Positions 55,893 through 57,966 of a DNA stretch of 64,000 nt are shown one piece after another (position 1 is the stretch's first letter; each line of letters starts with the position of its first letter). Where the stretch lies: positions 62,001 through 126,000 of the forward strand of contig NZ_QICN01000001.1 of NCBI RefSeq assembly GCF_003201205.1, read 5' to 3'. The notes under the pieces are model-generated. The model worked only from the letters and a program-made list of their open reading frames with translations, had not been told where the DNA came from and did no database searches. The stretch comes from Sinimarinibacterium flocculans. Its GTDB lineage: Bacteria; Pseudomonadota; Gammaproteobacteria; Nevskiales; Nevskiaceae. Position numbers and translations under genes: made by a program.

Positions 55893-56279
55893 ATGAGCAT
55901 GCACATGCGAAGCCGTCAGAGGGGACTCGGTTGGTTCGGGCTGCTGTTCGTGCTGGGCGTGATTGCCTTCACGGCGATCGTCGTCGTCAAGTGCCTGCCG
56001 ATCTACCTGAACCAGATGAAGATCGCCAGCTCGATCAACAAGGTCGCGTCCGACCCGAGCAACGGTCGCGCCGAGCTTCACGAGTTGCGCCGCGATCTTC
56101 AGCGCTTCTGGGACATCGAAGACATCAACTACCTTCAGCCACGCGACATCAAGGTCAAGCGCACCGCCAACGGCCGCTTCCTGAGCTACGAATACGAAGC
56201 GCGCGAGCGGCTGTTCTACAACATCTCGATCGTCATCGATTTTCAGGACGACGTGCAGCTCGCCAACGTACAGTCTTGA
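55893..56279 (+). CDS. DUF4845 membrane protein
   Basis: A 128-residue protein with one N-terminal membrane helix (LGWFGLLFVLGVIAFTAIVV) and a soluble part after KCLPIYLNQMKIASSINKVA. DUF4845 genes lie between lepB and rnc in many gammaproteobacteria; the function is unknown. The ATG at 55893 has AAGGGG upstream. Its TGA overlaps the TTG start of rnc. Confidence 0.85.
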   Translation: MSMHMRSRQRGLGWFGLLFVLGVIAFTAIVVVKCLPIYLNQMKIASSINKVASDPSNGRAELHELRRDLQRFWDIEDINYLQPRDIKVKRTANGRFLSYEYEARERLFYNISIVIDFQDDVQLANVQS

Positions 56280-56965
56280 CCGATCCGCTGGACCGACTGC
56301 AGCAGCGACTTGCCTACCGGTTTGCCGACGCGGCATTGCTGGAGCGCGCGCTGTCCCATCGCAGCATCGGCAGTCGCAACAACGAGCGACTCGAGTTTCT
56401 CGGCGACGCGCTGGTGAACTTCATCGTGGCCGAGGTGCTGCATGCGACCAAGCCGACGGCGGAGGAGGGCGCGTTGTCGCGCCTGCGTGCAAGCTTGGTG
56501 CGCGAAGAGTCGCTCGCACGTCTGGCGCGCGAGCTCGATCTGGGTGAGGTCCTGCGGCTCGGCGAGAGCGAGCTCAAGTCCGGCGGGTTCCGGCGCGATT
56601 CGATCCTCGCCGATGCCTTCGAGGCCGTGCTCGGCGCGATCCACCTCGATGGCGGCTTCGATGCCGCGCGTGCCGCTACGCTGCGCCTGTTCGCCCCCCT
56701 GCTCGAGCAACTCCCGGATGCCGAGTCGCTTAAGGACCCGAAGACGCGCCTGCAGGAGTGGTTGCAGGCGCGATCGCGACCGCTTCCGCGCTACGAAGTG
56801 CTCGCCGAGGAGGGACCCGCGCACGCGCGGCGCTTCTCGGTGAGTTGCAGCCTTGCCGATGACGACAGCAGTACCTTCGCGCAGGCCGGCAGCCGCCGTG
56901 TCGCCGAGCAGCAGGCCGCGGCGGCGATGCTGGAACGGATGGAGGCCCCGCCGGGCCATGCGTAG
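56276..56965 (+). CDS. rnc: Ribonuclease III
   Basis: A 229-residue double-strand-specific RNase. It starts at TTG 56276 within the DUF4845 stop. The catalytic signature is NNERLEFLGDALVNFIVAEV with Glu and Asp ligands near residues 40-47, and the second acidic pair lies in ADAFEAVLGAIHLDGGF. The dsRNA-binding domain follows from about 155 (DPKTRLQEWLQARSRPLPRY, then AGSRRVAEQQAAAAMLERM). It processes rRNA precursors. Its stop TAG lies within a near-copy of the era start, described below. Confidence 0.96.
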   Translation: MTDPLDRLQQRLAYRFADAALLERALSHRSIGSRNNERLEFLGDALVNFIVAEVLHATKPTAEEGALSRLRASLVREESLARLARELDLGEVLRLGESELKSGGFRRDSILADAFEAVLGAIHLDGGFDAARAATLRLFAPLLEQLPDAESLKDPKTRLQEWLQARSRPLPRYEVLAEEGPAHARRFSVSCSLADDDSSTFAQAGSRRVAEQQAAAAMLERMEAPPGHA

Positions 56966-56993
56966 CGGCATCGTCACGGTTGCGGGGCGCCCC
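56958..56993 (+). repeat. First copy of the era start region
   Basis: 36 bases starting ATGCGTAG, identical in 34 of 36 positions to 57079-57114 (differences at bases 22 and 24). The rnc stop TAG sits in it. GGAGG lies 12 bases upstream. Confidence 0.9.
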
Positions 56994-57086
56994 TGCACCG
57001 GCGCTTGCGCCTGTGCCCGTGATGGTCATGTCGACCTCTGCCGACGTTGGGGCGTCATCGCCCTCACCGAGCCTGCCAATGCGTAG
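56958..57086 (+). CDS. Possible 42-residue leader peptide between rnc and era
   Basis: A frame that opens with the duplicated Era N-terminus (MRSGIVTVAGRP) and continues CTGACACARDGHVDLCRRWG to a TAG at 57084-57086, which lies within the first codons of era. It has a GGAGG 12 bases upstream and overlaps the end of rnc. Four cysteines lie in the new part. It may be a coupled leader peptide or a scar of duplication; nothing proves it is made. Confidence 0.35.
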   Translation: MRSGIVTVAGRPCTGACACARDGHVDLCRRWGVIALTEPANA

Positions 57087-57123
57087 CGGCATCGTCACGA
57101 TCGCGGGGCGCCCCAACGTCGGC
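57040..57123 (+). repeat. Inverted repeat covering the Era P-loop codons
   Basis: GCCGACGTTGGGGCG (57040-57054) is the exact reverse complement of CGCCCCAACGTCGGC (57109-57123), which encodes the GRPNVGK region of Era. The 54-base spacer includes the era start codon, so pairing would close it in a loop. Confidence 0.8.
57079..57114 (+). repeat. Second copy of the era start region, at the era gene
   Basis: Begins ATGCGTAG like the first copy; here it continues into the intact GTPase P-loop, whereas the first copy diverges after GRP. The two copies start 121 bases apart. Confidence 0.9.
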
Positions 57124-57966
57124 AAGTCGTCGCTGCTCAACGCGCTCGTCGGCCGCAAGGTGAGTATCGTCTCGCACAAGCCGCAGACGACTCGCCATCG
57201 CGTGCAGGGCGTGCTGCATGCCGGCGACGACCAGATCGTCTTCGTCGACACGCCGGGCCTGCACCTCCTGCAGAAGCGCGCGCTGAACCGCGTGATGAAC
57301 GAGGCTGCCGCCGGCGCCCTGCACGATGTCGATCTTGTGCTGTTCGTCATCGAGGCGGGTCGCTGGACACCGGAGGATCAGGCGGTGTTCGACAGGCTGG
57401 TGTCGCGCAATGTCCCGGTCGCCCTGGTCGTCAACAAGGTCGACCGCATCAATGACCGCAGCGCGCTGCTGCCGGAGCTGCAGCGGCTGGCCGCGATGCG
57501 CGACTACCGCTTCATCGTGCCGGTGTCCGCATTCAAGCGCGACAACCTCGTGGCCTTGCGTGACGAGATCCTGAAGGCGCTGCCGGAGGGGCCGCCGCTG
57601 TATCCGCAGGGGCAGGTCGTCGCGCACGACGATGCGTTCACCGTTGCCGAGGTGATTCGCGAAAAGCTGATCCGCAGTCTCCACCAGGAGCTGCCCTACG
57701 CGCTCACCGTGGAGGTCGAGCACTACGAACGCGAGGCCGGACTCGATCGCATCAGCGCGATCGTCTGGGTCGAGCGGGAGGGGCAGAAGAAGATCGTGAT
57801 CGGCGAGAACGGCGAGACGCTGAAGAAGGTCGGTACCGCGGCGCGGCGCGAGCTGGAGCGCAGCTTCGGCCGGCGGCTGTTTCTCAAGCTCTGGTGCAAG
57901 GTGCGCGAGAACTGGAGCGATGATCCGAAGGCATTGCGCCGTTTCGGCCTGTCCGGGGACGATTGA
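57079..57966 (+). CDS. era: GTPase Era
   Basis: A 295-residue GTPase needed for 16S rRNA maturation and 30S assembly. The P-loop is GRPNVGKSSLLNALVG; T-T in switch I, DTPGLH, NKVD and VSAFKRDN supply the other G motifs. The KH domain has VEREGQKKIVIGENGETLKK. The start at 57079 is assigned because it gives the usual MRSGIVTIAGRPNVGKS N-terminus. An in-frame codon at 56980 would add 33 non-conserved residues. There is no good ribosome site just upstream, so coupling to the upstream frame may feed it. Confidence 0.95.
   Translation: MRSGIVTIAGRPNVGKSSLLNALVGRKVSIVSHKPQTTRHRVQGVLHAGDDQIVFVDTPGLHLLQKRALNRVMNEAAAGALHDVDLVLFVIEAGRWTPEDQAVFDRLVSRNVPVALVVNKVDRINDRSALLPELQRLAAMRDYRFIVPVSAFKRDNLVALRDEILKALPEGPPLYPQGQVVAHDDAFTVAEVIREKLIRSLHQELPYALTVEVEHYEREAGLDRISAIVWVEREGQKKIVIGENGETLKKVGTAARRELERSFGRRLFLKLWCKVRENWSDDPKALRRFGLSGDD

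Follow-up and report, generated by a model that had tools for sequence, protein, structure and literature searches.

A probable inverted triplication at the start of era and a putative relay reading frame between rnc and era in Nevskiaceae

Between rnc and era, the genes for RNase III and the GTPase Era, the first 36 nucleotides of era occur twice in the forward direction around an inverted copy of the Era P-loop codons, and a short reading frame, here called the relay ORF, leads from the stop codon of rnc to the start codon of era. The arrangement is laid out like a small inverted triplication, in which two forward copies (A1 and A2) flank an inverted copy of a sequence that overlaps theirs. 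The full module occurs in six genomes from four lineages among the 58 genomes of the family that we compared, and decayed versions occur in two more. It seems somewhat probable to us that a template switch triplicated the era start and that the forms preserving a hand-over of ribosomes from rnc through the relay ORF to era were the ones that were kept.

Anatomy of the rnc-era junction

The window is the whole stretch of DNA that was analysed, 64,000 nucleotides from Sinimarinibacterium flocculans, and coordinates refer to it unless a locus is named. The features that the argument depends on are the following.

56276..56965, forward strand: rnc (RNase III), with Pfam matches to Ribonucleas_3_3 (8.3e-34) and dsrm (1.9e-12) on 56276-56962
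56958..56993, forward strand: A1, first copy of the 5' end of era, 36 nt, containing both the stop of rnc and the start of the relay ORF
56958..57086, forward strand: relay ORF, 42 codons and TAG, starting on the rnc stop and ending on the era start
56994..57038, forward strand: X, a 45-nt spacer with a GC hairpin at its start
57039..57054, forward strand: anti-P-loop arm, inverted copy of the era P-loop codons, complementary at 16/16 positions to 57109-57124
57055..57078, forward strand: Y, a 24-nt spacer ahead of the functional era start
57079..57114, forward strand: A2, functional 5' end of era, with ATGCGTAG overlapping the relay stop
57109..57124, forward strand: P, the arm of the inverted repeat that encodes the P-loop
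57079..57966, forward strand: era (GTPase Era, 295 aa), with Pfam matches to MMR_HSR1 (8.7e-28) and KH_2 (3.8e-17)

The direct repeat reads ATGCGTAG...GCCCC, and its copies at 56958 and 57079 are 121 nt apart and identical at 34 of 36 positions, just as the first-pass annotation of this DNA had described them. ATGCGTAG itself is present at 56958-56965 and 57079-57086, and each copy of the repeat overlaps a stop codon. In A1 this is the TAG at 56963-56965, which was said to end rnc and does so, closing the frame in which the RNase III and dsrm domains were identified; in A2 it is the TAG at 57084-57086, reached by reading through the 42-codon frame begun at 56958, again as claimed. The geometry of the overlap has been kept, as the annotation held, with the relay start on the rnc stop and the era start on the relay stop. 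It was also correct that, of the two copies, just the one at 57079 leads on into the P-loop GRPNVGKS and the Era domains. The peptide of the relay ORF had no match in a Pfam search. The start of rnc, chosen from our reading of the sequence, appears to be a TTG that shares the TTGA of 56276-56279 with the stop codon of the ORF before it, so the chain of coupling may extend upstream of rnc.

What lies between the direct copies does not agree with the simple 121-base insertion or partial duplication that had been proposed, because the middle contains an inverted copy of the P-loop codons and a hairpin. The order is forward A1, X, inverted P-loop arm, Y and forward A2. The inverted core corresponds to nt 31-46 of era and overlaps the direct copies at nt 31-36. 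The hairpin of X is formed by GCACCGGCGC and GCGCCTGTGC at about 56995-57016 when the spacer is folded alone, and Y holds only a weak Shine-Dalgarno (SD) sequence in the window, those of other relay species being clearer by eye. A search of 56900-57250 with Rfam 15 gave no match at or above the gathering score, and the one match below the threshold had 15.5 bits against 137. We also considered an N-terminal extension of Era through the spacer and rejected it; the frame is open in the window, but in S. soli the open frame comes to 311 aa for a 294-aa Era, so the extension is not shared.

To judge how often such a structure arises by chance, we scanned 464,000 bases (the 64-kb window and 400 kb of contig 1) for direct repeats with a score of at least 22 and a spacing of 60-300 nt. 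Three pairs were found, of which the era pair scored 30 and the others 25 and 23, and among these three only the era pair was bordered downstream by an inverted arm (16 versus 5 and 5). The two other repeats are at about 8589-8714 of L154 and about 5187-5354 of L151; that in L154 includes the palindrome CCCGGCCATGGATGGCCGGG and is possibly a REP-like element. When the 301-base junction was compared with the whole genome, four other matches appeared at E <= 0.001, all of them in the P-loop part (query 193-253). An anti-P-loop sequence followed 45-75 nt later by a P-loop was present in one of 369 genomes of the class, namely that of the window, while of 85 order genomes five had it, at era in every case, in a search whose exact pattern passes over variants such as G048, where one base of the arm is changed.

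Recurrence, reading frame and predicted RNA pairing

The best named matches were Fontimonas, a Nevskiales assembly and species of Solimonas, a genus that the NCBI taxonomy places in Nevskiaceae, Nevskiales. We found era in all 58 genomes of the family, and a motif parser handled 56 of them, missing G011 and G022 and leaving G023 without an rnc parse. In 38 of the parsed genomes rnc and era overlap by ATGCNTAG (-8), eight have a relay ORF, nine have another spacer and the last is G023. Inspection by eye added G023, G011 and G022 to the first group, and the ancestral overlap of rnc and era that the annotation had supposed, 8 nt long, is thus found in 41 of 58 genomes.

The six full modules differ in spacing. 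It is 121 nt in the window and in G048, which belongs to another genus, 133 nt in G065 of a third genus, and 124 nt in S. terrae, in S. marina and in each of the two tandem units of S. soli, which are 94% alike. S. marina has in addition an older, decayed unit upstream with a spacing of 91 nt, and S. flava and S. variicoloris have decayed relays of 82 nt. A direct copy scoring at least 30 combined with an inverted arm scoring at least 11 occurred in none but the six module genomes among 135 era junction rows (136 were entered, one was dropped by a length rule, and several genomes stood under two ids). The module is not a single occurrence, given the four lineages and the tandem pair in S. soli. 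The first-pass annotation would have seen its reading undermined by an unrelated, variable spacer in relatives, but this is the condition of only 9 of the 58 genomes; these nine have no comparable direct copy, and seven of them have lost the TAG of the era start. Long rnc-era spacers of 162 and 204 nt were noticed in G014 (L026) and G044 (L135, also L054), respectively, and the spacer of G044, seen as L054, contains inverted repeats.

The relay spacings of 82, 91, 121, 121, 124 and 133 nt are all 1 mod 3, so that a frame opened at the first start always reaches the TAG in the second. The relay ORFs run from the rnc stop to the era start over 29-46 codons, and the frame is open in all ten units, including the decayed junctions of 82 and 91 nt. 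If the lengths were free and independent, the probability that all six are 1 mod 3 would be about 0.0014, a value weakened by shared ancestry; for the open frame alone, shuffled spacers at seven junctions gave a probability of about 0.095. The TAG in the era start is present in 8/8 relay genomes versus 2/9 genomes with other spacers (Fisher 0.0023, kinship ignored); where it is lost, the sequence at this position is for instance CAAAGC in Hydrocarboniphaga and CGCAGC in Panacagrimonas. The arm is translated in differing frames of the relay ORF, giving LCRRWG in the window, ADVGP in S. terrae and LPTLGR in G048, so it is the nucleotide sequence that is kept and not the peptide.

The arm can pair with codons 11-16 of era, and the loop that this helix closes around the start of era measures 53-55 nt in the window, S. 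soli, S. marina and S. terrae. We tested the X hairpin and the helix between arm and P-loop (25 pairs) for covariation in an alignment of six sequences, one of which was S. soli unit 1 joined to the P-loop of S. soli. In this test 94.0% of the cells were paired, compared with 88.6% in shuffles (0/500 reached the observed value) and at most 39.3% in slid controls, with the reservation that the structure was derived from the same alignment and the test leans towards it. Seven pairs, in the hairpin and the helix taken together, had changed on both sides; the count of further pair types was not above that of the shuffles (141/500). Folding of the whole span gave z values of -4.3 in the window, -3.6 in S. 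marina and -3.5 in S. terrae, and values that fall inside the range of the controls or at its limit in S. soli unit 2 (-2.5), G048 (-2.2), G065 (-1.8) and S. soli unit 1 (-1.3); the controls were 50 junctions with 60 shuffles each instead of 200 (mean -0.03, lowest -2.5). In the window the small hairpin is one candidate fold, for in the minimum-energy structure A1 pairs with X in its place.

Origin of the module and alternatives to a relay

The plan of the module suggests that it originated as a template-switch mutation, in which strands misaligned at short inverted junctions during replication. Such a switch inside the rnc/era overlap would have triplicated the era start to give A1, an inverted P-loop and A2. 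The two forward copies would then split the overlap by a length of 1 mod 3 and thereby create the relay ORF. Ribosomes that end rnc would restart on the relay ORF, complete it and restart on era, and this three-cistron relay could link Era to RNase III at a reduced ratio. A double hand-over is expected to bring down the amount of Era compared with that of RNase III. The anti-P-loop arm, which lies within the relay ORF, would pair with era and hold its start in the loop; translation of the relay ORF would open this helix and could make era depend more strongly on the relay. Both the coupling of the three cistrons and the gating role of the helix are proposals drawn from the sequence.

The inverted copy is certain for a core of 14-22 nt only. 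Past this core, a continuation of the copy in X or Y reached significance solely for X in S. soli unit 1 (p 0.008), and the combined p values over six species were 0.06 for X and 0.79 for Y. We accordingly gave up the idea that the whole spacer goes back, through decay, to an inverted copy of era nt 5-95, for which anchored alignment against shuffles gave no support past the core apart from that unit. The idea that the arm matches the P-loop codons of its own host everywhere was also abandoned: a 24-nt arm matched its own era best, or tied for best, in 4/6 species, the window and G065 being the exceptions. A1 is closest to its own A2 in all six species (34-36 of 36), and the two copies have lineage-specific bases in common, a closeness that fits either repeated formation or continued homogenisation.

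To the question how often the module was formed there is another answer, whose probability falls a little short of an even chance. A single ancient module could have stood at the base of the family and later have disappeared repeatedly through precise recombination of A1 with A2, a history compatible with a relay function. X is alike between lineages (8/12 pairs with p <= 0.034, uncorrected; within Solimonas 3/3) and is 44-48 nt long in all six module genomes, and precise loss of small inverted triplications by slippage is reported in E. coli, as far as the available part of PMC13334657 goes. However, a shared hairpin form could also yield the similarity of X. Parsimony requires 13 losses after one gain, as against four changes when gain and loss are free, in a tree where G065 is on a long branch and its placement is unsure; the nearest relatives of the window in the tree are without the module, and the lineage-specific bases of A1 and A2 would demand continued homogenisation. 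Y is similar mainly within Solimonas (2/3 pairs, p 0.002), with one of 12 between-lineage pairs at 0.022.

It is also conceivable, but in our opinion unlikely, that the module is a scar without function, in which replication errors alone keep the triplication and the hairpin and era uses its own Shine-Dalgarno sequence at the second start. Template switching would perfect the inverted repeats, and homogenisation of inverted arms in this manner is reported in the part of PMC8604942 available to us; slippage would homogenise A1 and A2, and the best match of A1 to its own A2 is what homogenisation or recent copying leads one to expect. Replication errors of this kind do not readily account for spacings that are 1 mod 3 throughout the lineages, for a frame that is open in every unit and kept even at the decayed junctions, for the TAG in all relay genomes or for the compensating changes in the X hairpin. 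The SD-like sequences ahead of the second start in most relay species (seen by eye; GAGGA in S. soli and S. terrae, GGAGGTGGAG in G048) favour the scar. They bear equally on the claim of the first-pass annotation that Era relies on termination and reinitiation, because with them era may also initiate independently. The retained frame and TAG both fit that claim, but the SD-like sequences speak against a strict dependence, although that of the window is weak.

A further observation concerns the first start. In all five relay-bearing species of Solimonas (L037, L038, L039, L040 and L044) TACAAT stands 7 nt before the first ATG, that of the relay ORF, where it uses the codon CTA or TTA. Both codons are rare in GC-rich genomes. 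This TACAAT resembles the -10 box of sigma-70, and a nearly leaderless transcript would then begin at the relay ORF. The motif is also present within two Hydrocarboniphaga spacers (G018 and G044) and was not found in the stretch of the window that was scanned for it.

Insertion of a small mobile element or integron cassette at the era P-loop, with duplication of the target, is very improbable. The thought arises from the antisense P-loop, which reads GTTGGGC and resembles the core of an attC site, from the patchy distribution and the tandem units of S. soli, and from integron integrases above the curated cut-off in 38/58 family genomes (that of the window among them, at G000:C11:4689-5633), so integrons may be common in the family. 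An attC site has the core-site consensus RYYYAAC and GTTRRRY at the two ends of the folded site. GTTGGGC occurs in 5/7 units, the window having GTTGGGG and G048 GCTGGGC, and the AAC of the left core site in only one of seven, and these junctions do not have the core sites of an attC. Nor does the integrase follow the module, being present in 4/6 module genomes (not in S. soli or G048) versus 34/52 others, and no copy of the module away from era was found in its own genome, in the 464-kb scan or in the 85 order and 369 class genomes. None of these three lines of evidence favoured such an origin. An artefact of assembly or sequencing, or a single copy misassembled as two, has a negligible probability even though the window comes from a draft of 39 contigs, because the architecture is repeated in five separately assembled genomes (G048, G065 and the named strains of S. 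soli, S. terrae and S. marina).

Relation to known systems and significance

Coupled rnc-era, leader ORFs and small inverted triplication are each known already, singly. According to the portion of PMC10582724 at hand, an rnc stop overlapping the start of era is found in many gammaproteobacteria, where translation of era is considered dependent on reinitiation. The junction described here is alike in that the rnc stop overlaps a start, but a relay ORF of 42 codons, a hairpin and an anti-P-loop arm intervene, the ordinary arrangement being that of 41/58 family genomes. The same portion of that paper describes an autoregulatory stem-loop for RNase III, also a long RNA helix in the rnc-era transcript; it lies in the 5' leader of rnc, whereas the helix predicted here is between rnc and era. 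Coupling by RNA unfolding, as the accessible part of PMC12548453 presents it, is similar in that translation of an upstream ORF might unfold a helix that encloses the start following it. In our case the ORF is situated between two cistrons of an operon and is built on a copy of the start of the downstream gene itself.

Small inverted triplications with a DUP/IN/DUP plan are described from yeast and tumours in the available part of PMC13334657, and creation of a hairpin by template switching in one event in that of PMC8794818. Both resemble the module in having short forward, inverted and forward copies with spacers. The sizes differ, with a 36-nt direct copy and a 14-22-nt inverted core here and 148/160/148 bp in the former, and the module appears to be fixed in bacterial species, in frame and at an essential gene. 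No relay ORF at era and no relay from a fixed triplication was described in the titles and abstract openings among the matches listed from open-licence PubMed Central, a collection outside which most subscription papers lie, and no paper of that open-licence literature brought together Solimonas, era and RNase III.

A class of error known from yeast and tumours appears to be fixed here, as a natural case, in an essential bacterial gene, and the triplication was apparently shaped by the need for ribosomes to flow between two overlapping cistrons. The series of relatives with zero (S. aquatica and Fontimonas, for example), one (S. terrae) or two (S. soli) relay units, fresh or decayed, offers a comparison in which the dependence of Era on rnc translation may be followed, and it may also inform the birth of new leader ORFs. 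A wider reading, which we offer as speculation and consider rather improbable as a whole, is that inverted triplications at gene starts would be a natural and repeatable route to relay cistrons, with the era start of Nevskiaceae as a hot spot where they arise, multiply in tandem as in S. soli, decay and vanish. Each relay step would then reduce the output of Era compared with RNase III, and the helix formed by the anti-P-loop arm would be a switch for Era that is gated by translation and possibly cut by RNase III.
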